Positions 5,296 to 38,066 of a stretch of DNA of 62,177 nucleotides are shown piece by piece (position 1 is the stretch's first letter; every line of letters starts with the position of its first letter). A program made the translations under genes and the position numbers. Source of the stretch: Flavobacteriales bacterium (GTDB lineage: Bacteria; Bacteroidota; Bacteroidia; Flavobacteriales_D; Sanyastnellaceae); contig JANQWV010000069.1 in the NCBI GenBank assembly GCA_030729695.1, positions 64,542 through 126,718 on the forward strand. Reading direction: 5' to 3'. The notes beneath the pieces were generated by a model. That model was not told where the DNA came from. It did no database searches and worked only from the letters and a program-made list of their open reading frames with translations.

Positions 5296-6597
5296 TTAGT
5301 TTGAATATGTAATGATCAAGCGCGTGTTTTCGCTTGAAATATTTGAAAAATCAGGACCGTGAAGAACGGTGCGGTTCACAGATACGCCAGCCGCTCCCGA
5401 AACAATAAATAGTGGAGCGTTCTCTAAATCTCCAGAAATTACTTTTTGAACATATTGCGTAATGTTCAGACGATATCTTTTGTTTGACTCTTCCACACCA
5501 CCGCCAATGTTTCCGCTGAACTGATCGGGAAGCGCAACTAAAGTTCCTTCGCTGTTCTGATAAAAGACGAAAATTTGTGAAGCAGGAGCATAGCGAGAAT
5601 CAGGCTCGTAAGGAATAACTAACTCTGCCTTATTAACGATTCTACCTTCACTCATTTGAAGATCTAAAAGATTAGGTAATACCAATTTCGTTTTTGTTCC
5701 TGCCCCAGCTTGCAAATACATCATGGCCTGATTCGCAATCGTGTCTGTTGTAACAAGTGCTTGTAATTCAGGCTGAGTGGCATATTGATAAAAGTGCTGA
5801 AGTTGCGAATATCTTCCGCAATCAGAGGTAACAGGAAATTCATAAAAAGTGGTGTCCGCCAATCCGCCATTGTCGAAGCGATAGTAAACCGTGATTTTAC
5901 TGTTGATGTTGGTTAGATCTAGCGCAACTACCCCCATTGGATAAGAACCCGCTTCAACTTTTAACCCTTTAAAATACGCTTGAAAATTTTCATCCGATTC
6001 CAAAACCGTTGGGTCTGCAGGCTGCATAAGCCTTGTTCCCAAAGCTGTTTTTAACGGAATGCGCAATTGAGGTGAAAGAGAATCTTCGGTTCCAAACAAG
6101 TATGTTTTTGGTTTGAATTGAAATGTTTGAAAAGGATTAGCTAATAAATTTTCGTTCAATACCGGTGCATTGTAAGAACTATTGAACCCTTCGCTTTTTG
6201 GTAAATCGTCGCTAAGTTCTCTCACCGATAAATAACCTTCGCCCAACGAACCGTATGAATACCCCGTGTAGGCAACAGAGAAAATAACAGAGTCGACTTC
6301 AAAGGTTTCTGGAAAAGTGGGATTAGCTCCTGATAGAACGAACTGCGTTGCAAAACTAGCAAGTGTTCTTCCGAAAGTTTCTTCGGTATATGAACCCAAC
6401 AAACAGGCTGAAAGCTCATCGGTAGAAAGCGTGTCTTCGCGAACGATGTAACTGAAAATACTAGCTGTATCTGTTTGATTGGCGTACAACACATCTTCTT
6501 GCGGAAGAAGTCCATCTGCCTGCAAATCCGTTGGTTTGTCACATGCGCTGAAACCAATCAATGAAACCGCGCAAAGCAAGAAGAGGGCTTTCCTCAT
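5296..6597 (-). CDS. DUF4270 family lipoprotein
   Basis: 433 residues from the ATG at 6597. The lipoprotein signal MRKALFLLCAVSLIGFSAC places the lipid on Cys19. The body resembles DUF4270, a Bacteroidota-specific surface lipoprotein family of unknown function: an early LLPQEDVLYANQTDT segment, then beta-rich sequence and a C-terminal NRTVLHGPDF...LIITYS region. It starts 4 bp after the glgA-like gene and ends 11 bp before glmS, a gene order I recall from other Bacteroidota. Linkage to glmS hints at an envelope role, but this is inference. Confidence 0.85.
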   Translation of the reverse strand: MRKALFLLCAVSLIGFSACDKPTDLQADGLLPQEDVLYANQTDTASIFSYIVREDTLSTDELSACLLGSYTEETFGRTLASFATQFVLSGANPTFPETFEVDSVIFSVAYTGYSYGSLGEGYLSVRELSDDLPKSEGFNSSYNAPVLNENLLANPFQTFQFKPKTYLFGTEDSLSPQLRIPLKTALGTRLMQPADPTVLESDENFQAYFKGLKVEAGSYPMGVVALDLTNINSKITVYYRFDNGGLADTTFYEFPVTSDCGRYSQLQHFYQYATQPELQALVTTDTIANQAMMYLQAGAGTKTKLVLPNLLDLQMSEGRIVNKAELVIPYEPDSRYAPASQIFVFYQNSEGTLVALPDQFSGNIGGGVEESNKRYRLNITQYVQKVISGDLENAPLFIVSGAAGVSVNRTVLHGPDFSNISSENTRLIITYSN

Positions 6598-24650: not shown

Positions 24651-25272
24651 ACCATTCTCCACAGAGAATAATTAGATTACAAACCATTCCAAGTGCGAAC
24701 CCAGCATACACTTGTTGGTGTGTGTGTGCGTTCAGACGCAGCCTCGAAAAACCAGTTAGCGCAGCCATGAAAAGGCATGCGATGATGATAATTGAAACAT
24801 CTGCACGGTGGAGAATACTTAAGCTTATTAGTGATCCAAAAACGCCACCTTGTCCGAGCATGTGAACGCTAATTTTCCAGAAGAAATTTATTCCTAACGA
24901 AAGTATTAGCGAAACAATTACGGAAAATATAAATGAGAATACTTCTGTAGGAAGTGTTGGGCCGAGGTATCTGAGCAGGCCGTATGACATAATGTAGTAG
25001 AGGATAACCAACAAATAAGGCGCCCATCTTTCTTTTCGATCATGCAAATCAATGGACGAAACCATTTTGAATTTGATCATGATGAGAATGCTCAATGCAG
25101 GAGCAACGATATTAATTCCAAGTAAAAGAAAAACGAAATAATCTGCTTCTGCTGGTGCAATGTAGTAAGGGTCTATCCAGCGGACCAAAAGGTAGATGAC
25201 CATTGGCATTCCCAGCGGATGGAAAATCAAAGAAAGGAATTTCGAAAACTGAATAATAAACTTTTCTCTCAT
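24643..25272 (-). CDS. PAP2-like integral membrane protein
   Basis: 209 residues with about six predicted membrane segments. The C-terminal half keeps part of the type 2 phosphatidic acid phosphatase pattern: KISVHMLGQGG, and SRLRLNAHTHQQVYAGFALG, where the SRxxxxxHxxxQVxxG arrangement is typical. The first KxxxxxxRP motif is weak (the segment DLHDRKERWAPYL may stand for it), so activity is uncertain. Such proteins dephosphorylate membrane lipids such as undecaprenyl diphosphate. Its ATG overlaps the rpoN stop (TAATG), so it is translationally coupled to rpoN. Confidence 0.78.
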   Translation of the reverse strand: MREKFIIQFSKFLSLIFHPLGMPMVIYLLVRWIDPYYIAPAEADYFVFLLLGINIVAPALSILIMIKFKMVSSIDLHDRKERWAPYLLVILYYIMSYGLLRYLGPTLPTEVFSFIFSVIVSLILSLGINFFWKISVHMLGQGGVFGSLISLSILHRADVSIIIIACLFMAALTGFSRLRLNAHTHQQVYAGFALGMVCNLIILCGEWFI

Positions 25273-26720
25273 TACATTTCTTTTCTTAATCGAGCTACTG
25301 GAATACCAAGCTGTTCGCGGTATTTTGCAACAGTTCTTCTTGCGATGTTGTATCCTTTTGAGTTAAGCAATTTACCTAATTTCTCGTCGGTGAGGGGTTT
25401 CTTTTTTTCTTCCGCGCCTATGGCATCTTTGAGTATTTGCTTCACTTCTCTTGAGCTCACTTCCTCTCCTTCGTCGGTTGAAAGGCTTTCTGCGAAGAAG
25501 TATTTCAATAAATAAGTTCCGTAAGGTGTTTGAATGTATTTGCTATTCGCCATGCGGCTAATGGTTGAAATGTCCATATTAACGCGATCGGCAATGTCTT
25601 TCAAGATCATGGGTTTCAATTTCGTTTCATCTCCTGAAAGGAAGAATTCGCGCTGCATGGTAAGTATAGCTTCCATGCAAATCATGAGTGTTTGATTTCT
25701 TTGTTGAATAGCGTCAATAAACCACTTCGCGCTTTCAATTTTTTGTTTTACGAATTGAAGGGCTTCTTTCGCCTTTGTATCTTTTGTTTTGAGTTTCGCG
25801 TAGTGATCGAGCATGCCTTTGTATTCGCGACTTATCTTCAATTCAGGAGCATTTCTTGAATTAAGTTGAAGGCGCAACTCGTCGTTTTCTACGACTAACA
25901 TAAAGTCGGGAGTAACGTGTTGAACGGTTCTATTCGACTCTTGCATACTGTTCCCAGGTTTTGGGTTGAGATGCAAAATAAGTTCGATAGAAGGCTTCAA
26001 CTCTTCATCTGAGATGCCGAGTTTTTTCGAAATTTTCTCGTAATGTTTTTTGGTGAATTCGTCGAAATATTTTTGAATAATGGTCTTCGCTAATTCAACC
26101 ACGGGTGTATTTCTCTCTTGGCGTTTCAGTTGAATATACAAGCATTCGCGCAGATCTCTTGCACCAACACCAGCAGGATCAAGTTCCTGAATTTCCTTGA
26201 GAACCTCCTCTAATTCAGGAACCGAAGTCATGATGTTCATGGAAAAAGAAAGGTCGTTAGCAACCGCTTGTAATTCTCGTCTTAAATAACCGTTATCGTC
26301 TAAATTACCAATGATGTATTCGGCGAGCTGCAATTGCTCTTCGTCCAAATCGCGAAGGCCAATTTGCGCATAGAGTAAATCGTGGAATGTTTTTCCTGCA
26401 CCTATTGGAATATCTCGATCTTCTTGGTCTGCCGAGTTGTTGTTTACGCTTAATTTATAATCGGGAACATCGTCGTCGGAAAGAAATTCAGAAAAGTCGA
26501 AATCAACTTCTTGGTTGTCGTTTTCTTCTTCGTTGCTGTCTTCGTCGCGTTCGCTTTCTTCCTTCTCTTCTTCTCCCTCCTCTAGGGCAGGGTTGCTCTC
26601 CATTTCTTCTTTGATGCGCTGCTCCAATTCCATCGTTGGAATTTGAAGCATCTTCATCAACTGAATTTGTTGAGGAGAAAGTCGCTGTTGTAATTTTAGT
26701 TGAAGACCTTGTTTTAACAT
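25272..26720 (-). CDS. rpoN: RNA polymerase sigma-54 factor
   Basis: 482 residues. The N-terminal activator-interacting region I is Gln/Leu rich (LKLQQRLSPQQIQLMKMLQI). It is followed by the acidic region II (about 50-100), the core-binding region, and the C-terminal helix-turn-helix with DISTISRMANSKY. The RpoN box is ARRTVAKYREQLGIP near the end. Sigma-54 needs AAA+ enhancer-binding proteins; none is in this window. The PAP2-like gene is coupled downstream. A -7 box 8 nt before the ATG suggests a nearly leaderless mRNA. Confidence 0.97.
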   Translation of the reverse strand: MLKQGLQLKLQQRLSPQQIQLMKMLQIPTMELEQRIKEEMESNPALEEGEEEKEESERDEDSNEEENDNQEVDFDFSEFLSDDDVPDYKLSVNNNSADQEDRDIPIGAGKTFHDLLYAQIGLRDLDEEQLQLAEYIIGNLDDNGYLRRELQAVANDLSFSMNIMTSVPELEEVLKEIQELDPAGVGARDLRECLYIQLKRQERNTPVVELAKTIIQKYFDEFTKKHYEKISKKLGISDEELKPSIELILHLNPKPGNSMQESNRTVQHVTPDFMLVVENDELRLQLNSRNAPELKISREYKGMLDHYAKLKTKDTKAKEALQFVKQKIESAKWFIDAIQQRNQTLMICMEAILTMQREFFLSGDETKLKPMILKDIADRVNMDISTISRMANSKYIQTPYGTYLLKYFFAESLSTDEGEEVSSREVKQILKDAIGAEEKKKPLTDEKLGKLLNSKGYNIARRTVAKYREQLGIPVARLRKEM

Positions 26721-26735: not shown

Positions 26736-26780
26736 GTGGGAATGCTCCTTAAATTTGAAAAAAACGAAACGAGAACTTGT

Positions 26781-27758
26781 ATGCATAAAATTTTATTGAA
26801 GCAAGGTGGGGTAGTATTGATTGTTCTGACTTCCATTTTAATCTTGTTTAGTTCATTAGTTAGTTGTCGTGAGAATGGCCCCGTTTGCTTGTCGGCACCA
26901 GATTGTAAAGGAGATTCAGCTATTCGATTTGCAGTTATAGGCGATTGGGGAGTTTGGGGACAACCGGATCAAATGAAGGTCGCGGCGGCAATGGAGAAAG
27001 TTGGGGCTGACTGCGCATATGATTTTATTGTTAGTACGGGAGATAATTTTTATGATAATGGCGTTGACTCTGTTCAAGATGTATTGTGGAATATGTCTTA
27101 CGAGTATGTTTATACAGGAGCCCATTTGCAATGTCCGTGGTATGTTGTTCTAGGAAATCATGATTATCGTGGAGCGCCGTCTGCAGAGATGGCCTATTCC
27201 GCGCTAAGTCCTCGTTGGAAATTGCCTGCAAAATATTACAAGGAGATATTTTCTTTTGGAAATGGCGAAACGCTTGACATGTTTTTTATGGACTCGAATC
27301 CATACCAAAAGGACTTGCTATCTGCAGGGAATTCATATCCGGAATTGAATTCCCTTGATACGGTTTATCAGAATGATTGGATTGAATCTGGCTTGAGGAA
27401 CTCAAGTGCAAATTGGAAATTAGTGATTGGACATCATCCTTTGTATACCTGTGGTGTTCGAAAAAATCAGCCTCAATACATGCGCAAATTCGAGGGGTTA
27501 TTCAATGAAACCCACGTCGATGCTTATTTTTGTGGTCACGAACATGATTTGCAGGTTCATAAGCCTACCGGCACAGTGACTTACTTTGTTTCGGGGGGAG
27601 GTGGAAGTAAGCGGGCTATTCAGTCGCCATTTGAGTTTACTCATTTTGCACAGTCAACTCTTGGGTTTATGGTTGTGGAAATCATGAACAGCAAAATGAC
27701 GGTCACGAGTTACAATGAAAACGGCCAAGTTTTATACGTCGAAACCATTGTTCATTAG
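26781..27758 (+). CDS. Purple-acid-phosphatase-like metallophosphoesterase lipoprotein
   Basis: 325 residues from the ATG at 26781; starts at 26742 (ATG) or 26736 (GTG) are possible. The signal ends SSLVSC with Cys near residue 29 as the lipid site. The metallophosphatase motifs are in order: AVIGDWGVWG, STGDNFYDNG, VLGNHDYRG, VIGHHPLY, GHEHDLQ. The GDWG and GDNFYDNG forms match the type-5 (tartrate-resistant) acid phosphatase family with a two-metal centre. It probably works at the outer membrane or periplasm to release phosphate. It is divergent from rpoN. Confidence 0.93.
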   Translation: MHKILLKQGGVVLIVLTSILILFSSLVSCRENGPVCLSAPDCKGDSAIRFAVIGDWGVWGQPDQMKVAAAMEKVGADCAYDFIVSTGDNFYDNGVDSVQDVLWNMSYEYVYTGAHLQCPWYVVLGNHDYRGAPSAEMAYSALSPRWKLPAKYYKEIFSFGNGETLDMFFMDSNPYQKDLLSAGNSYPELNSLDTVYQNDWIESGLRNSSANWKLVIGHHPLYTCGVRKNQPQYMRKFEGLFNETHVDAYFCGHEHDLQVHKPTGTVTYFVSGGGGSKRAIQSPFEFTHFAQSTLGFMVVEIMNSKMTVTSYNENGQVLYVETIVH

Positions 27759-27857: not shown

Positions 27858-30800
27858 TTGAAAAAGCATATAGTATTTTTTGTCGCACTATTTTTTAGTT
27901 TGGTGACTCTTCAATCTTTTGGACAAGGAGCCAATTGTTTAGGTGCGACGCCGATTTGCTCAGGTGCTCCAACAACTTTTCCGGCAGTAGTGGGAGGATC
28001 TGTTCCTGGGGGGAACAACTACGGCTGCTTGGGGGCTCAGCCGAATCCTTCTTGGTTTACACTAACTGTAGGCTCTACTGGTCCCATAACTATAAATCAG
28101 ACGTCGCCATGTGACCAAGATTATGCGGTTTGGGGTCCATTCAATTCATTGTCTGCGGCATGCGCGGGCTTAACAGCAGCTCCTGTAAGTTGCAGCTTCT
28201 CAGTGGCGTCGGGAAACACATTTACTTTACCTACTGCGACCCCTGGACAAATTTTTATCATGTTGTTTACCAATTTTGGAGGCTGTACGGGTAATGTGAA
28301 TATAACTGAAAGTGCCGGAGGTGGTACGCTAACTTGTGTTCCTGTTTGTGCGGTAACTGCATCCAATCTTGGACCGTACTGCACGGGAACTACGATTACT
28401 CTGAACGCCACTGCTGCAACAGGTGCTACCGGATATTCTTGGACAGGTCCGAATGGATTTACAGCAACTGGACAAAACGTTACTATTCCGAATTGCAATG
28501 CTTCAATGGCCGGTGTATATACAGTTACAGCTACTGGTGCTGCAACTTGCACGGGCTCTACAACGGTTGTAGTAAACGCAACGCCAACGATGAATCCATC
28601 GGTTAACAGCCCTGTGTGTATAGGTAGTCCGATCAACTTTACTTCAGGCGCACCTGTTGGAGCCTTGGTAGCATGGACAGGACCTGCGTTTGCGGCGTTG
28701 AATCCGAACCCTACAATTGCAAGTGCGACATTGGCAAATTCGGGGAATTATACAGTTACGGTTCTTCAAAACGGTTGTCAAGCGCAGCAAATAATTCCCG
28801 TGGTAGTAACAGCCGGCCCGACTGTTACGGCTACTCCAAGTGCGACTTATTGTTCCGGATCTTCTGTCCCAGCTGTTTCATTTACTGGAACACCCGCTAA
28901 CGCAACTTTCGCGTGGACAAATAATCAACCCACCATCGGATTAGCCGCATCAGGAACTGGAGGAGTGCCAACATTTACAGCAACGAATACCACAGCAAAT
29001 CCTATTGTAGCAACAGTTTCAGTCATTCCTCAATTGGGAACTTGTAACGGTACGGCAAGTAATTTTACAATTACTGTTAATCCAGTTCCGGCTTTAACAG
29101 CACCTGCCTCAAATGTGTATTGCGAAGGAGCCCAATTCCCGGGTGTTACTTGGGGAGCAAGCGCAGGATCGACAATTAGTTGGACCAACTCTAATCCTGC
29201 TATAGGGTTGCCAGCATCGGGAACAGGAAATATTCCCGCGTTTACGACCAGTCAGGTTACCAATCAAACTATTGCAACGATTACGGCCACGCCTTCGCAA
29301 GGCTCTTGCACAGGGACGCCGATAACATTTAACATTACCGTGAATAACGCGCCAAGCGCAACGATCACCGATATTGGACCTCTTTGTTCGAACGCTGGTT
29401 TCCAAACCTTTGTTGCTGCAACTCCTGGCGGAGTTTGGAGTGGACCGGGAATTATTAATACTACAAGTGGTTTGTTTAATCCATTGACGGCTGGCGCCGC
29501 AACGCACACCATTACTTACACATTGAATCTTCCAAACCAGTGTCCTGCTTCTGATGTGACACAGGTTCAGGTTATCAGTGTTCCACTGGCTAACGCAGGT
29601 TTAAACCAGAGTGTTTGTCAGGGACAAATCGTAAACCTTAATGGATCCTTCACCAATTCGAATACAGGTGCTGAGACATTTGCTTGGACGCCAGCAACGA
29701 ATCTAACAAACACAACTACGCTCACGCCAACATACACTGCCAATAGCACCCAAACGTATACTTTAACGGTTACTTCAGGTATTTGTAGTTCAACAGACAA
29801 TGTGGTTATCACCATGTTGCCTCAAAGCAACGCGACTATCACGGCCGCTGGCCCATATTGTGCCGACGTGGCTCCGGTAGTTCTCGCCGCAGCACAGACC
29901 GGTGGAACATGGAGTGGTCCTGGAATTACTAACGCAACAACAGGCGCGTTCAACCCCGCCCTTGCTAACGTTGGAAACAACACAATTACATATTCTATAG
30001 GTGGTTCATGTCCGAGTACAGACACTCAGGTAATCGTAATTTACGCAGTTCCAAATGGAGCCATAACCCCTTCGGGCCCTTACTGTCAATCTGCTCTACC
30101 GGTAACGCTTACAGCAGCAACAGCGGGAGGAACCTGGAGTGGCACTGGAATCAACAATCCCGCTACGGGTAGTTTTGGTTCCACTACGTTAGCGGCAGGA
30201 ACGTATGCGATAACCTATACTACTTCAGGAAACTGTCCAAGAACGTTCAATCAAAACATTGTTGTGAATGCAAGTACTAATGCGACAATCATTGCCGCAG
30301 GTCCTTATTGTGCAGACGTTGCCCCTGTGGTTTTAGCAGCCGCTCAAACAGGAGGAACATGGAGTGGCCCCGGAATTACTAACGCTACTACAGGTGCTTT
30401 CAATCCTGCACTTGCGAATGTTGGAAACAACACAATTACCTATTCAATTGGTGGCCCTTGTCCAAGCACAGATACACAAGTTATCGTAATTTACGCAGTT
30501 CCAAGCGGAACCATAACCCCTTCTGGTCCATATTGTCAATCTGCATTGCCAGTTACACTTAATGCTGCAACTCCAGGAGGAACCTGGGGTGGAACGGGAA
30601 TTAACAATCCGGCTACGGGTAGTTTTGGTTCACCAACATTAGCAGCAAACACTTATGCCATAACTTATACCACTTCAGGAAACTGCCCGAGAACGTTTAA
30701 TCAAAATATTGTAGTAAACGCAAGTACGAATGCAACAATCACTGCAGCGGGCCCATTTTGTTCAGACGATGCGGCGGTAATTTTAACTGCTGCTCAAACT

Positions 30801-33800
30801 GGAGGAACTTGGACTGGTCCTGGAATAACGAATGCCGCTACCGGCGCGTTTAATCCGGCCAATGCGAACACGGGTAATAACACAATAACCTATTCCATCG
30901 GTGGTCCTTGTCCAAGTACAGACACGCAAATAATTGTAGTAAACTCTCTGCCAGACGGAACTATTACGCCTGCTGGCCCTTTTTGTCAATCTGATTTACC
31001 ATTCACCCTAACGGCTGCAAGTGCTGGCGGAACATGGAGTGGAACAGGAATTAACAACACTTCAACAGGTAGCTTTGGATCAACGACGCTTGCTGCTAAT
31101 AACTATACTGTAACTTACAATACAGGAGGAAACTGTCCTCAGATATTTACTGAAACCATTGTAGTTAATGCGAATACAAATGCTACAATTTCTGCAGCGG
31201 GGCCTTATTGCTCCGATGTTGCACCGGTAATTTTAACAGCAGCTCAAGCAGGCGGAACATGGAGTGGCACGGGAATAACAAGCGCTGCAACGGGGGCGTT
31301 CAATCCAGCAAGTGCAAATATTGGAAACAATGTCATCACATATTCTATCGCTGGCCCATGTCCAAGCACAGATACTCAGACAATTATAATTTATGATGTT
31401 CCAGACGGTACCATTACTCCAGTTGGACCATTTTGTCAATCAGATTTGCCAATAACATTAACAGCGGCTTCAGCAGGCGGAACTTGGAGTGGCGCAGGTA
31501 TAAATAACACCTCAACAGGAAATTTTGGTTCTACTACGCTTGCTGCGAACACGTATACTGTAACCTACAATACAGGTGGAAACTGTCCGAACAACTTTAC
31601 CGAAACAGTTATTGTGAATGCTAACGTCGATGCAACGATTACACCTCAAGCGAATATTTGTGCTGATGCTGCTTCAATAAATTTTGTTGCTGCTGATTTG
31701 GGAGGTGTTTGGACTGGAAACGGGATAACTGACGGAACGTTAGGAACATTTGATCCGGCAGCAGTTATACCTGGTCTTCAAACAATAACATACACTATTT
31801 CAGGGGCTTGTCCGGATTCAGATATTCAGACTATTGAGGTTTATGAGGTTTTTGACGGAACTATTACTCCAGCTGGACCGTTTTGTCAAGCCGAATTACC
31901 CTTTACACTCGCTGCGGCAAGTGTCGGAGGAACTTGGACAGGAACTGGAATTAACGATGCTTCAACAGGAAGTTTTGGATCGACCTCGTTAGCCGGAAAC
32001 TCATATGTTATAACCTATACTACTGCAGGAAATTGTCCACGTGTATTCAATGAAACAATCGTTGTGAACGCGAACGTGGATGCGACCATATCGAACGTGG
32101 CGCCTTTGTGCGCTGATGTTGCTCCGTTTAATTTGACTTCTGTAGACCCGGGAGGAACTTGGAGTGGGACAGGAATTACTGACCCAATAAACGGAACCTT
32201 TGACCCGAGTGCGGCAACAACAGGACCTCAAACTATAACCTATACCATTCCGGGCTCTTGCCCAAGTTCAGATACTCAAGAAATTACAGTTTATGCTGTT
32301 TATGACGGAACTATTACCCCTGCCGGACCGTTTTGTCAAGCAGATCTTCCTATTACGTTAGCTGCGGCTAGCACCGGAGGAACATGGAGTGGAAGTGGAA
32401 TAAATGATCCTGCTTCTGGGTCATTCGGATCAAATACCCTTGCAGCTAATTCCTACACCATTACCTACACAACTCAAGGGAACTGCTCTGAAGTAAATAC
32501 GACTACAATTGTAGTGAACGAGAATGTGGATGCTACAATCTCTGCTGTTGCTGATGTATGTAATGACGCGCCAGCATTTAACATGACTGCTGCGGATGCT
32601 GGCGGAACGTGGAGCGGACAAGGAGTGAGCGGAACGGGTACTTTCGCACCGAATTCAGTTACTCCTAGCACATACACAATTACCTATTCGATTGGCGGAG
32701 CTTGTCCAGATTCAGATACTCAGGATGTTGTTGTGTTGCCTGTTCCTGACGGAACAATAACACCCGCTGGACCTTTTTGTCAAGACGCATTGCCGCAAAC
32801 ACTTGTAGCAGCAAGTGCAGGCGGTGTTTGGAGTGGAACAGGAATCACCAGCGCAGCGAATGGAACATTCGGAGCTGCAAATACCCCTGCGGGTAATTAT
32901 TCAATTACATACACGACTCCAGGACAATGCTCAATTGCCTTCAATCAAGTCATTCAGGTTATAGAAAATTTAGACGCTACAATTGCTTCGGCCGGACCGT
33001 TTTGTGAAGACGACGCGCCCTATATTCTTACCTCTGCAAGTCCAGGTGGGGTATGGAGTGGAACAGGCACTATTGCAACGAATGGGCAGATTTCTCCGAG
33101 CGTTTTAAGTTCAGGAACGTTTACATTCAATTACAATATTGATAATAACGGATGTCTTAGCAGTGATAATGTTCAGATTACGGTAAATGCTCTTCCACAG
33201 CCAAGTTTCACGGCTAGTGCGACAGAGGGATGTTCGCCTTTATCTGTGACATTTACAAACACATCGAATCCATTAGGTAGCAATTGTGTTTGGTATGTAG
33301 ATGGCGCACCTGCAGGAAACGGCAATTCATTCAGTGAGATATTTACAGGAAGCAGTTGTTCTGATATCGGAATAATGGTTACTGATGCGGTAGGCTGCAG
33401 TCAAACTATGACAATGACCGATTATGTTTGCGCCTATCCGAATCCGTCGGCTTCATTTACTTGGTCTCCTCTTCAGCCCATGTTAGGCGGAACTGTTTCC
33501 TTTGAAAACACCTCTATCGGTGGATTAATTTACGACTGGGATATTAATGGCCAAGGGGCTTCGGGTGAAAACGTAACCTACAATGTTCCTTCTGGAATAG
33601 ACGGTGAGTTTCAGGCTTGTTTGCAAATTGAGGGTCAGGGAGGATGCATGGATTCACAATGCTATACAATTGTTGTTAGTAGCGAATCGATGATTTTTGT
33701 TCCCAATTCTTTTACACCAGATGCAGATGGAACCAATGATGTTTTTGCACCAGTTATAGCAGGCTTAACAAGTGATTACAAATACTCGTTCAGAGTATAT

Positions 33801-33977
33801 GACCGTTGGGGAGAAGTAATTTTTGAAACCAATGATCCAAGTGATGTGTGGACGGGTAATGTTCGCGGTGGAGATTATTACGCCCAACCAGATGCTTACA
33901 TCTACGAAATTACACTTCAGTTAAGAGCAGGTGAGCCGCCATTTCGCAAGGTTGGAACAATAATTTTGATTCGCTAA
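27858..33977 (+). CDS. Giant repeat adhesin with type-B T9SS (gliding-motility) C-terminal domain
   Basis: 2039 residues, starting at a TTG (MKKHIVFFVALFF signal peptide). An N-terminal cysteine-rich beta domain (about 24-155: LGATPICSGA, PSWFTLTVG) is followed by Ig-like segments (YSWTGPNGFTATG). Seven tandem 150-residue units come next, each two 75-residue modules with Cys at positions 11 and 61 (29829-32972). Then come an eighth half-unit, two PKD-like domains (about 1780-1940), and the C-terminal gliding-type sorting domain (FVPNSFTPDADGTNDVF, YDRWGEVIFE). It is likely secreted by the T9SS and displayed on the surface, in the manner of SprB-like adhesins. Its paralogue follows directly. 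Confidence 0.93.
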   Translation: MKKHIVFFVALFFSLVTLQSFGQGANCLGATPICSGAPTTFPAVVGGSVPGGNNYGCLGAQPNPSWFTLTVGSTGPITINQTSPCDQDYAVWGPFNSLSAACAGLTAAPVSCSFSVASGNTFTLPTATPGQIFIMLFTNFGGCTGNVNITESAGGGTLTCVPVCAVTASNLGPYCTGTTITLNATAATGATGYSWTGPNGFTATGQNVTIPNCNASMAGVYTVTATGAATCTGSTTVVVNATPTMNPSVNSPVCIGSPINFTSGAPVGALVAWTGPAFAALNPNPTIASATLANSGNYTVTVLQNGCQAQQIIPVVVTAGPTVTATPSATYCSGSSVPAVSFTGTPANATFAWTNNQPTIGLAASGTGGVPTFTATNTTANPIVATVSVIPQLGTCNGTASNFTITVNPVPALTAPASNVYCEGAQFPGVTWGASAGSTISWTNSNPAIGLPASGTGNIPAFTTSQVTNQTIATITATPSQGSCTGTPITFNITVNNAPSATITDIGPLCSNAGFQTFVAATPGGVWSGPGIINTTSGLFNPLTAGAATHTITYTLNLPNQCPASDVTQVQVISVPLANAGLNQSVCQGQIVNLNGSFTNSNTGAETFAWTPATNLTNTTTLTPTYTANSTQTYTLTVTSGICSSTDNVVITMLPQSNATITAAGPYCADVAPVVLAAAQTGGTWSGPGITNATTGAFNPALANVGNNTITYSIGGSCPSTDTQVIVIYAVPNGAITPSGPYCQSALPVTLTAATAGGTWSGTGINNPATGSFGSTTLAAGTYAITYTTSGNCPRTFNQNIVVNASTNATIIAAGPYCADVAPVVLAAAQTGGTWSGPGITNATTGAFNPALANVGNNTITYSIGGPCPSTDTQVIVIYAVPSGTITPSGPYCQSALPVTLNAATPGGTWGGTGINNPATGSFGSPTLAANTYAITYTTSGNCPRTFNQNIVVNASTNATITAAGPFCSDDAAVILTAAQTGGTWTGPGITNAATGAFNPANANTGNNTITYSIGGPCPSTDTQIIVVNSLPDGTITPAGPFCQSDLPFTLTAASAGGTWSGTGINNTSTGSFGSTTLAANNYTVTYNTGGNCPQIFTETIVVNANTNATISAAGPYCSDVAPVILTAAQAGGTWSGTGITSAATGAFNPASANIGNNVITYSIAGPCPSTDTQTIIIYDVPDGTITPVGPFCQSDLPITLTAASAGGTWSGAGINNTSTGNFGSTTLAANTYTVTYNTGGNCPNNFTETVIVNANVDATITPQANICADAASINFVAADLGGVWTGNGITDGTLGTFDPAAVIPGLQTITYTISGACPDSDIQTIEVYEVFDGTITPAGPFCQAELPFTLAAASVGGTWTGTGINDASTGSFGSTSLAGNSYVITYTTAGNCPRVFNETIVVNANVDATISNVAPLCADVAPFNLTSVDPGGTWSGTGITDPINGTFDPSAATTGPQTITYTIPGSCPSSDTQEITVYAVYDGTITPAGPFCQADLPITLAAASTGGTWSGSGINDPASGSFGSNTLAANSYTITYTTQGNCSEVNTTTIVVNENVDATISAVADVCNDAPAFNMTAADAGGTWSGQGVSGTGTFAPNSVTPSTYTITYSIGGACPDSDTQDVVVLPVPDGTITPAGPFCQDALPQTLVAASAGGVWSGTGITSAANGTFGAANTPAGNYSITYTTPGQCSIAFNQVIQVIENLDATIASAGPFCEDDAPYILTSASPGGVWSGTGTIATNGQISPSVLSSGTFTFNYNIDNNGCLSSDNVQITVNALPQPSFTASATEGCSPLSVTFTNTSNPLGSNCVWYVDGAPAGNGNSFSEIFTGSSCSDIGIMVTDAVGCSQTMTMTDYVCAYPNPSASFTWSPLQPMLGGTVSFENTSIGGLIYDWDINGQGASGENVTYNVPSGIDGEFQACLQIEGQGGCMDSQCYTIVVSSESMIFVPNSFTPDADGTNDVFAPVIAGLTSDYKYSFRVYDRWGEVIFETNDPSDVWTGNVRGGDYYAQPDAYIYEITLQLRAGEPPFRKVGTIILIR
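29829..32972 (+). repeat. Seven tandem 450-bp coding repeats (14 modules of 75 residues)
   Basis: Units begin at 29829, 30279, 30729, 31179, 31629, 32079 and 32529, an exact 450-bp period. The last unit is 444 bp. Each is two 225-bp modules, with ATI...GP.C near the start, GGTWSG in the middle and C-P near residue 61. Units 1 and 2 are about 94% identical as protein but differ at many third codon positions. Confidence 0.95.
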
Positions 33978-34082: not shown

Positions 34083-37000
34083 GTGAAAAAACATTTATTT
34101 ATCGTTCTAGCGGTTTTGTTATCTTCTATTGCAAAAGCGCAACCAGGACCTACGACCTATACTCTAAATCCTCAGCCAATCAATGGCCAGTATTCAACGG
34201 GTACAGTTGTAACCATGTGCTTTACTATGACCGGTTTTGGCGGTTGTGGAAGCGCCGAATGGTTCGAAGGATTTGATTTGAACTTAGGTCCCGGTTGGAC
34301 AAATGTCTCTCCCGTTACAGCCCCTGCCGATTGCGGCGGAGCAGCACCAGGTGGTCAGGGTTGGATCTGGTTAGTTACAAATAATACAGCAGTTGGTCCA
34401 GTTGGTCCGGGTTATTTTTATGAAGGTCCTACAGGTCCGATAGATGGTAACCCATCTAATGACTGGGGAGATGCGGGTAATTGCACGTGGAGTTTTTGTG
34501 TGAATTTAACTGTTGCGAATTCGCCAGCTGCCGGAAATCTTTCAGTATCTGTATCTGCAGCGTCAGATGGTTATTGGGGAAGTTGGGGTGGAAACGGCTG
34601 TGACTATGCAAACCCGATTACAGTTTTGCCACCGTCTACGAGTATCTCAGGAGTTCCTATTTGTGCTGTAACGGCCTCTGCAACGTCTACGAATGCGAAT
34701 AACTGTGCTGGAGCTACGGTTACATTAGCCGCTTCAAACGCTTTCGGCGCGACTAACTATGCTTGGACGGGACCAAACGGTTTTACAGCAACAGGACAAT
34801 CGGTAACAATTCCGAGCGCGCAAGTTGCTAATGCCGGTTTGTACACTGTTACAGCTACGGGTGCTGCGACATGTTCAGGATCAACTACAGTCGTTGTAAA
34901 TCCAGTTCCTCAATTAAACGCCACCTCAAACGGCCCGGTTTGCGTTTGCAACCCCCTAACATTGAGTTCTGGTTTAACCCCTACACCCGGGTTATTGGTT
35001 GCGTGGACAGGTCCAGGATACGCATCAATTAACGCAAATCCAACAATTCCTTGTCCGCAAGTAACAAACAGTGGAACCTATACCTGTACCGCTTTGCAAG
35101 CGGGTTGTCAAGCGCAACAAACAGTTCAGGTTCTTGTTAGCCCAACTCCAAGTGCAGTTGTTAGCCCAGGTGGAACCTACAGTGTTTGTGCTGGCGAAAC
35201 GATTCCTACTCAAACAATAACAGGAACTCCTGCAAATGCAGTTTTAGGATGGACGAGTACTCAAGCAGGAATAGGTATTCCAGCAACGGGAGTAGGAACC
35301 ATTCCTTCATTTACAGCGGTTAATAATACGCCCGCGTCAATCACATCAGTGATAACCGTTACTCCAACACTTGGAACGTGCACAGGAACACCAAGCACAA
35401 TAACCATCACTGTAGGGCCTAGCCCAACGATTATAGAGCCTGAATCGAATTTGTATTGCGACGGAGCAACGTTCGCGGGTGTTGATTGGGGAGCAACTCC
35501 TTCGAGCACTGTTGTAGACTGGACAAATGACAACACGGCTAGTGGACTTCCAGGATCCGGACAAGGGAATATTGGAAGTTTTCTTTTGAGTAATCCAACG
35601 CTTGGCCAAGCTCTTTCAACTTTTACCGCAACTCCTTCTGTAGGAACGTGTATTGGAACACCAGTAACCTTTACAGTAACCGTAGCGGGTAATGGTGATG
35701 CAACCATTACCGATATTGGACCGTTGTGTTCAGATGTAGGACCACAAACGATTATTGCTGCGGATCCAACAGGGACTTGGTCGGGAGATGGAATCGTTAG
35801 CTCATTCGGTAATACTTCAGTTTTTGACCCAACTCTTGTTGGTCCCGGTCAACACGATATTTATTACAGTATTCCTGGTCAATGCGGAGGTTCAGATGGA
35901 TTGCAAATTGAAGTGGTGAATGTTCCTGCAGCCTTTGCTGGACTTGACTTCAGTATTTGCGAGGGGGTTGATACGGTAATGGTTGGTTCATTCACCAATT
36001 CAACCACAGGTACTGAGGAATTTACTTGGTCTCCTGCTACGAATTTGAGCAGTGCGACCGTTTCGTCACCAACTTTAACAGCAACAACAACACAGACGTA
36101 CACACTAACCGTGAATTCTGGAATTTGCGCTTCAAGTGATGATATTGTTGTAACTGTTGTTCCTCAAAGTGACGCAACCATTATCGCTTCAGGGCCTTAC
36201 TGTGCAGACATTGCGCCCGTTCAGTTATCTTCTTTAGAACCCGGAGGAACATGGTCGGGAACGGGAATTACGAATGCTGCCAACGGAACTTTTGATCCTG
36301 CCGTTGCCACACCTTCTACTCATACAATTACTTATTCAATAGGTGGCTTCTGTCCTTCAACAGATACGGAAGACTTTGTTGTTTGGGATGTTCCAGATGG
36401 AACAATTACCCCAGCAGGACCGTTTTGTATTGCAGAACTTCCAGTTACTCTGACAGCAGCGAGTGCAGGTGGAACTTGGAGTGGAACTGGCATAAACAAT
36501 GCTGTTTCAGGAAGTTTCGGAAGTGCAGCAACAACAGCGAATTCATATTTGATTAACTACAATACAGGTGGAAACTGTCCGCATGATTTCACAACAACTG
36601 TTGTTGTAAATGCTAATTCCGACGCTACAATTAATGCCATTGCTGATATTTGTAACGATGCTCCCGCGGTAACTTTAACAGCTGTGGAGGCGGGTGGAAC
36701 CTGGTCGGGTCAGGGAGTTTCAGGATCAAGCTTTAATCCGGCTGGATTACTTCCAGCAACATATACCGTGACTTATAATATTGGCGGTGCTTGCCCAGAT
36801 TCAGATACGCAAGATGTAGTTGTTTTAGCTGTCCCAGACGGAACCATCACTCCTGCTGGTCCATTCTGTCAAGATGCTTTACCGCAAACACTTACTGCAG
36901 CATCTGCCGGTGGAACGTGGAGTGGAACAGGTATTACAAGTGCTGCAAATGGTACATTTGGTAGCACCACAACACCTGCCGGTAACTATACGATCACCTA

Positions 37001-38066
37001 CACCACTTCGGGTGTTTGTCCTCAGACGTTCACAGAAAGTGTTGAAGTTGTAGGAAATCTTGACGCAACCATTAACGCCGCGGGTCCTTTCTGTGAGAAC
37101 GCAAGTGCTCAAACACTTACTGCTGCTAATCCAGGTGGAACTTGGACAGGCACAGGAGCAATTACAGCAGGTGGACAAATCTCGCCGACAACTCTTGGAG
37201 CGGGGACTTACACGTTTACATACGACTTGAGTAATAGCGGATGCTTGAGTAGTGACAATGTTCAGGTTACAATCAATGCATTACCTGTACCGAGCTTCTC
37301 AACAAGTTCTACTACCGGTTGCTCCCCACTATCGGTGAGCTTTACCAATACATCTAATCCTCTTGGAAGTAACTGTGTTTGGTATCTCGATGGCAATCCG
37401 GTTGGAAGCGGAAATACATTCAGTAATTTGTTCGAAGGAAATTCATGTTCTGATATTGGAATCATGGTAACCGATGCTGCGGGATGTAGCGCAACCATTA
37501 CTCAGAACGATGTGGTTTGTGTTGTATCTAATCCATCTGCATCTTTCACCTGGTCGCCATCCGAGCCAAATTCAGGTAGTACTGTATTCTTCGACAACGC
37601 ATCGTTGGGAGGAGTAACTTACAACTGGACTATCGATGGTGTTTCATATACAAGCGAAGACGTTACTTTCCCGCTTCCAAGTGCAATTGGTGAAACGTTC
37701 GAGGCTTGCCTAGATGTTGTGGGTGTAGGGGGTTGCATGGACGCTCAGTGTTATACGGTTAGCGTTAGCACCAGTTCTTATGTATACGTTCCAAATTCGT
37801 TCACTCCAGATGGAGACGGTAAGAACGATGTGTTCGCGCCAGTAGTAACAGGTTTGTCGAGCACGTCTCGCTATAGCTTCAGCATTTACAATCGTTGGGG
37901 AGATTTAATTTTCGACACGAAAGATCCAAATGATGTTTGGGTTGGAGATGTTAACGGTGGTTCACACTTTGCAGAAGATGGAGCTTACGTTTATGAAATT
38001 AAGATTCAGTTCAGTTCTGGCGAAGAGCCATTCAAGAAAATGGGAACAGTAGTATTGGTTCGTTAA
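34083..38066 (+). CDS. Second repeat adhesin, paralogue with fewer modules, type-B T9SS C-terminal domain
   Basis: 1327 residues from a GTG start (MKKHLFIVLAVLLSSIAKAQ signal). The N-terminal domain (about 21-190: YTLNPQPINGQYSTGT, FCVNLTVANS) differs from its neighbour. The Ig-like part, the 75-residue modules (two pairs plus flanking single modules), the PKD-like region (GCSPLSVSFTNTSNPLGSNC) and the sorting domain (YVPNSFTPDGDGKNDVF, YNRWGDLIFD) are closely related. A TATTTTTG box at 34020-34027 is a plausible own promoter. It looks like a tandem duplicate with a replaced N-terminus and a shorter array. The stop overlaps the next convergent gene by 4 bp. Confidence 0.93.
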   Translation: MKKHLFIVLAVLLSSIAKAQPGPTTYTLNPQPINGQYSTGTVVTMCFTMTGFGGCGSAEWFEGFDLNLGPGWTNVSPVTAPADCGGAAPGGQGWIWLVTNNTAVGPVGPGYFYEGPTGPIDGNPSNDWGDAGNCTWSFCVNLTVANSPAAGNLSVSVSAASDGYWGSWGGNGCDYANPITVLPPSTSISGVPICAVTASATSTNANNCAGATVTLAASNAFGATNYAWTGPNGFTATGQSVTIPSAQVANAGLYTVTATGAATCSGSTTVVVNPVPQLNATSNGPVCVCNPLTLSSGLTPTPGLLVAWTGPGYASINANPTIPCPQVTNSGTYTCTALQAGCQAQQTVQVLVSPTPSAVVSPGGTYSVCAGETIPTQTITGTPANAVLGWTSTQAGIGIPATGVGTIPSFTAVNNTPASITSVITVTPTLGTCTGTPSTITITVGPSPTIIEPESNLYCDGATFAGVDWGATPSSTVVDWTNDNTASGLPGSGQGNIGSFLLSNPTLGQALSTFTATPSVGTCIGTPVTFTVTVAGNGDATITDIGPLCSDVGPQTIIAADPTGTWSGDGIVSSFGNTSVFDPTLVGPGQHDIYYSIPGQCGGSDGLQIEVVNVPAAFAGLDFSICEGVDTVMVGSFTNSTTGTEEFTWSPATNLSSATVSSPTLTATTTQTYTLTVNSGICASSDDIVVTVVPQSDATIIASGPYCADIAPVQLSSLEPGGTWSGTGITNAANGTFDPAVATPSTHTITYSIGGFCPSTDTEDFVVWDVPDGTITPAGPFCIAELPVTLTAASAGGTWSGTGINNAVSGSFGSAATTANSYLINYNTGGNCPHDFTTTVVVNANSDATINAIADICNDAPAVTLTAVEAGGTWSGQGVSGSSFNPAGLLPATYTVTYNIGGACPDSDTQDVVVLAVPDGTITPAGPFCQDALPQTLTAASAGGTWSGTGITSAANGTFGSTTTPAGNYTITYTTSGVCPQTFTESVEVVGNLDATINAAGPFCENASAQTLTAANPGGTWTGTGAITAGGQISPTTLGAGTYTFTYDLSNSGCLSSDNVQVTINALPVPSFSTSSTTGCSPLSVSFTNTSNPLGSNCVWYLDGNPVGSGNTFSNLFEGNSCSDIGIMVTDAAGCSATITQNDVVCVVSNPSASFTWSPSEPNSGSTVFFDNASLGGVTYNWTIDGVSYTSEDVTFPLPSAIGETFEACLDVVGVGGCMDAQCYTVSVSTSSYVYVPNSFTPDGDGKNDVFAPVVTGLSSTSRYSFSIYNRWGDLIFDTKDPNDVWVGDVNGGSHFAEDGAYVYEIKIQFSSGEEPFKKMGTVVLVR
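36171..37061 (+). repeat. Two module pairs homologous to the 450-bp repeats
   Basis: Modules start at 36171, 36396, 36621 and 36837, with a further one at 37062. Spacings are 225, 225, 216 and 225 bp. The consensus (DATI...GPxC, GGTWSG, CP) is the same as in the neighbouring adhesin. Confidence 0.92.

Follow-up and report, generated by a model that had tools for sequence, protein, structure and literature searches.

The analysis of the window, the whole stretch of 62,177 nucleotides under study, showed that two adjacent repeat units of one gene, designated gene a, encode nearly the same 150 residues with many differing codons. These units 1 and 2 are very probably old tandem duplicates that have been held under purifying selection in an array with a slow turnover of units. 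The coordinates of the gene, its units, and the neighboring paralog are given in Table 1.

Table 1. Positions of gene a, its repeat units, and gene b in the window.
Feature	Position	Strand	Remarks
Gene a	27858..33977	+	ORF, 2,039 aa; signal-like N-terminus, repeat array, T9SS type B C-terminal domain
Unit 1 (modules 1A + 1B, 75 codons each)	29829..30278	+	GC3 0.365
Unit 2 (modules 2A + 2B)	30279..30728	+	Compared with unit 1: protein 94%, DNA 80.7% identical
Unit 3	30729..31178	+	75% aa identity with unit 1, codons fully scrambled
Unit 4	31179..31628	+	
Unit 5	31629..32078	+	
Unit 6	32079..32528	+	
Unit 7 (148 aa)	32529..32972	+	
CHU_C, T9SS type B sorting domain	33696..33920	+	PF13585; TIGR04131 just below cutoff
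Gene b	34083..38066	+	Neighboring paralog that shares the modules and C-terminal domain of gene a; served as baseline

Units 1 and 2, of 450 bases each, lie in frame inside the ORF of gene a, the array of which consists of seven full units of two modules each and an extra half unit. The count of 14 modules given in the original prediction was therefore borne out. Identity between the units falls to as low as ~57%, and only units 1 and 2 have nearly the same protein sequence in the window genome (G000). The GC3 of unit 1 lies above that of units 2–7 (0.24–0.32). At the C-terminus, a CHU_C domain (PF13585, 45 bits against a cutoff of 27, aa 1947–2021) marks gene a as bearing the type B sorting signal of T9SS cargo; the score for TIGR04131 was 34.2 bits in gene a, just under the cutoff of 35, and 37 in gene b. 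The N-terminus, MKKHIVFFVALFFSLVTLQSFGQG, resembles a signal peptide when judged by eye. The product of gene a is thus predicted from its domains to be a type IX-secreted surface protein composed of a chain of ~75-residue Ig-like modules. The gene directly upstream (26736–27758) appeared phosphoesterase-like by eye and had no match in the corresponding locus of the related genome G004 (L029, around 5807–6012), where the repeat gene directly follows the ortholog of the gene that starts at 25272.

A profile of 29 units yielded an all-beta model of the unit with only short helical turns (pLDDT 93), and the same strands were repeated in a two-unit model (pLDDT 92). In the predicted model, each module is an all-beta sandwich of ~75 residues. 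The best matches in the fold comparison were cadherin domains and the tandem Ig-like repeats of GhpA and SraP, with TM values of 0.3–0.54. No curated Pfam Ig-like family scored above its cutoff with the units as queries, some of which gave weak matches (the best to Big_3, E 0.0035), and the Pfam Ig-like families gave no match when the whole gene a protein was the query. Each module has two invariant cysteines (unit columns 11 and 61, and 86 and 136), and these pairs could form disulphides. Judging by this architecture, the gene a product is likely an extracellular stalk or adhesin of Ig-like beads, which such bonds would stabilize. The module profile also matched the repeated domains of All3314 from Anabaena (PDB 7b5h; E 1.1e-11), a match that links a T9SS-exported module type to a cyanobacterial assembly protein.

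The codon-by-codon comparison of units 1 and 2 reproduced exactly the hand counts from which the original prediction had been made. In module A (75 codons), 35 codons were identical, 38 differed synonymously, and 2 non-synonymously; the corresponding numbers in module B were 38, 30, and 7. The differences are therefore mostly synonymous, and the claim of a near-identical protein written in differing codons holds at a DNA identity of 80.7%. For the whole units, the NG86 method gave dN 0.039 and dS 1.35 (0.021 and 1.61 in module A, 0.057 and 1.16 in module B). Maximum likelihood under GY94 placed dS at ~2.3–2.5, with module A beyond reliable estimation, since in these fits a value above ~3 means only “saturated.” The resulting omega, 0.029 (NG86) or 0.013–0.015 (maximum likelihood), is of the low kind that characterizes a birth-and-death array under purifying selection. 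Codons were shared at 73 of the 141 conserved residues, and full scrambling, with random codons weighted by the usage of the genes themselves, predicts 52.5 (z 3.7). Full saturation of units 1 and 2 was rejected on the basis of this codon sharing. Thus, dN is low and the dS of 1.35 is near saturation, but saturation has not been reached. The pairwise codon test covered units 1–6 of the seven, and its remaining 14 pairs were indistinguishable from full scrambling.

The significance of these values depends on the divergence between species, for which the search covered eight further genomes of the genus. Full orthologs of gene a were found in G007 and G004, and partial ones in G002, G008, and G006. 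The neighboring gene at 25272–26720 had 97.5% amino acid identity between G000 and G007 with dS 1.64 and omega 0.011, and gene b had 88–91% amino acid identity between species with dS 1.3–1.5 and omega ~0.05. Overall, the dS of genes between sister species ranged from 0.6 to 2.1. The value for units 1 and 2 lies inside this range; therefore, the premise of the original prediction that the units are recent copies was wrong. When gene b was compared between species in windows of 150 codons, 30 windows reached an amino acid identity of 92% or more, and in 8 of these the codon sharing did not exceed that of units 1 and 2. A similar relation was seen in single modules: module 1B and module 0B of G002 had 94.7% amino acid identity with 48% shared codons, and module 2B and module 1B of G004 had 92% with 49%. 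Omega estimates from orthologous modules (vertical comparison) were just as low as the one from units 1 and 2 (horizontal comparison). Units 1 and 2 thus look like orthologs whose separation is about as old as that of the species in the genus, and they are not anomalous. The match with the between-species pattern favors the simpler of the two explanations that had been offered, namely purifying selection on the protein.

In the DNA tree, units 1 and 2 were joined within G000 (support 100/98), and the unit 3 types grouped across genomes (99/97). Since the tree joins units 1 and 2, it does not itself show a duplication before the species split, and support in trees built from single modules of 75 codons was too low to date the duplication. 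A family-search scan of 29 loci revealed close repeats (at least 75% identity over 60 aa) in only four, all of them in sister species of the genus. The sister genome CAMCVP010000007.1, a metagenome assembly labeled Chryseobacterium gleum, falls in the genus of the window genome, and this label looks wrong.

Comparison of the arrays demonstrated that the number of units changes among the sister genomes, from 4 to at least 7 full units, as is characteristic of a birth-and-death array: 7 units were counted in G000 and G007, 6 in G004, at least 7.5 in G002, and 4 in G008. In G007, units 1 and 2 had dS 0.55 and an identical run of 68 nt, with identity significantly clustered, and units 3 and 4 shared a 39-nt run; in G002, the unit pair 1–3 had dS 0.39 and a 50-nt run. 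Pair 1–2 of G007 and pair 1–3 of G002 are converted or recently duplicated. The differences in unit number together with the identical runs indicate that turnover by duplication, loss, or conversion occurs in the genus. Homogenization of DNA within a genome, the mark of concerted evolution, was absent from the window, where 80.7% is the best pair, and was partly seen in G007 and G002. In the window, units 1 and 2 gave only weak signs of a conversion tract (a longest same-codon run of 11, P 0.03; an unremarkable number of runs, P 0.26), and they have long escaped homogenization. The claim that gene conversion is lacking can therefore stand at most for units 1 and 2 of the window genome, but not for its relatives, where arrays are partly homogenized and vary in unit number.

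In the explanation that we propose, each module would be preserved by purifying selection (omega ~0.01–0.03 for units 1 and 2 and ~0.05 across much of gene a). Synonymous sites would meanwhile have drifted over roughly the time since the species of the genus separated, an age that we infer for the duplication as well. Units would occasionally be gained, lost, or converted, as in the sister genomes, with units 1 and 2 escaping homogenization. If so, protein identity is no date for a duplication, and repeats whose protein sequences suggest a recent copy can be of old date in their DNA.

An import of unit 1 or unit 2 by recombination with the array of another species, where the codons had diverged, appears unlikely. 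The locus is indeed mosaic: the fraction of codons shared with G004 is 0.67–0.77 over aa 1353–1652 and mostly 0.2–0.5 elsewhere, and the neighboring genes share 0.65–0.73 of their codons with this genome. In addition, unit 1A matches outgroup codons no better than codon usage alone predicts. However, no donor was found: in its codons, unit 2 is at least as close to unit 1 as any module in G002, G004, G007, or G008, and the DNA tree pairs the two units directly with each other. The stretch of high sharing with G004 corresponds to units 5B to 7A, and the mosaic pattern suggests an allelic replacement of much of gene a in one lineage.

Within module A, the outgroups matched the codons of unit 2 at 13–18 of ~33 positions and those of unit 1 at 6–10, and synonymous change in this module looks lopsided between the two units. 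The two amino acid differences observed compare with ~10 expected at dS 1.35 and omega 0.05 (P 0.0015) and with 6.2 expected at omega 0.03 (P 0.045), although units 1 and 2 were picked for being extreme and these P values are uncorrected for the selection of the case. It is quite improbable that the proteins of 1A and 2A are kept alike within the genome more tightly than orthologs are between species, through selection for the matching of neighboring units. If this were true, neighboring stalk units would be selected to match each other beyond the needs of each unit's own fold.

The other explanation in the original prediction was that differing synonymous codons are themselves selected, as long identical DNA allows an array to recombine and lose units. 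The unit pairs of the window do have few long identical runs (22 nt at most in units 1 and 2 and 9–17 nt in the other pairs), and the codons of unit 1A are less preferred than those of 2A (mean usage frequency 0.337 vs. 0.391). Nevertheless, units 1 and 2 share more codons than random. The ratio of observed to expected codon sharing among paralogous modules, pooled over all arrays, was 1.165 within a gene and 1.139 between genomes, where no such pressure acts, so that pairs within a gene are no more scrambled. Exact in-register runs were at least as long as those in controls made by shuffling synonymous codons inside each unit, and the sister genomes tolerate identical runs of 39–68 nt. Codon sharing above random that is at least as high within genes as between genomes gives no sign of selection for codon diversity; together with the run lengths, it led us to reject this explanation, which is now highly improbable.

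An assembly artifact, in which identical copies collapsed or units 1 and 2 came from different strains, has a very small probability. It is true that assemblies are known to collapse or break up tandem repeats (PMC6868369), that contigs of G002 end within unit 1, where they share an exact overlap of 99 nt, and that contig breaks also fall in or close to the array in G006 and G005. However, G007 has the same architecture at equal length, and units 1 and 2, with ~19% of their bases differing and exact in-register runs of 22 nt at most, are separable in assembly. Contig numbers and titles make these genomes look like short-read metagenome assemblies. As identical DNA copies collapse or break contigs, assembled arrays would tend to appear DNA-diverged, and short-read assembly probably over-represents such arrays. 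Some share of the divergence seen among assembled arrays may come from this ascertainment; accordingly, caution is needed with arrays taken from short-read metagenomes, which probably favor repeats that have diverged as DNA.

The reading of units 1 and 2 as old duplicates under purifying selection can be compared with several known systems. Among solved chains, the nearest by sequence to the gene a units is All3314 of Anabaena (PDB 7b5h), with a profile match over the repeated modules and the motif GGT...F.P; however, All3314 is a chain of a cyanobacterial assembly. Grappling hook protein A of Aureispira (PDB 9g8b, 9fls) likewise has tandem Ig-like modules (TM 0.54 and 0.49 between its fragments and the unit model), but identity over the alignment is only 14–15%, and nothing points to a hook or to prey capture in the case of gene a. 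The staphylococcal adhesin SraP also has Ig-like repeats that were among the best folds for the unit model. No bacterial adhesin case of the same kind was found in the literature searched.

For repeats within proteins generally, Persi, Wolf and Koonin (2016) reported an omega far above that between species (PMC5120217). Gene a resembles their pattern in the purifying selection on its repeats and in the highest similarity of adjacent ones (PMC5120217). It differs from their trend in that the omega of units 1 and 2 is no higher than that of orthologs, although this departure is not firm because the silent sites are near saturation. The closest parallel in pattern is polyubiquitin, the repeats of which are near-identical as protein and have many synonymous differences (PMC10457151). 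According to the discussion in PMC10457151, Nei et al. (2000) took this pattern for the outcome of birth-and-death evolution with purifying selection, and other authors saw slow concerted evolution in it. Gene a shares with it the head-to-tail units of ~75 residues, the near-identical protein with many synonymous differences, a repeat number that varies, as polyubiquitin's does by unequal crossing-over, and homogenized units in some lineages. Unlike polyubiquitin, gene a encodes an Ig-like array secreted by a bacterium, in which unit identity drops to ~57% and only one pair is near-identical. Units 1 and 2 thus offer a clean bacterial example of the pattern that has been debated for polyubiquitin.
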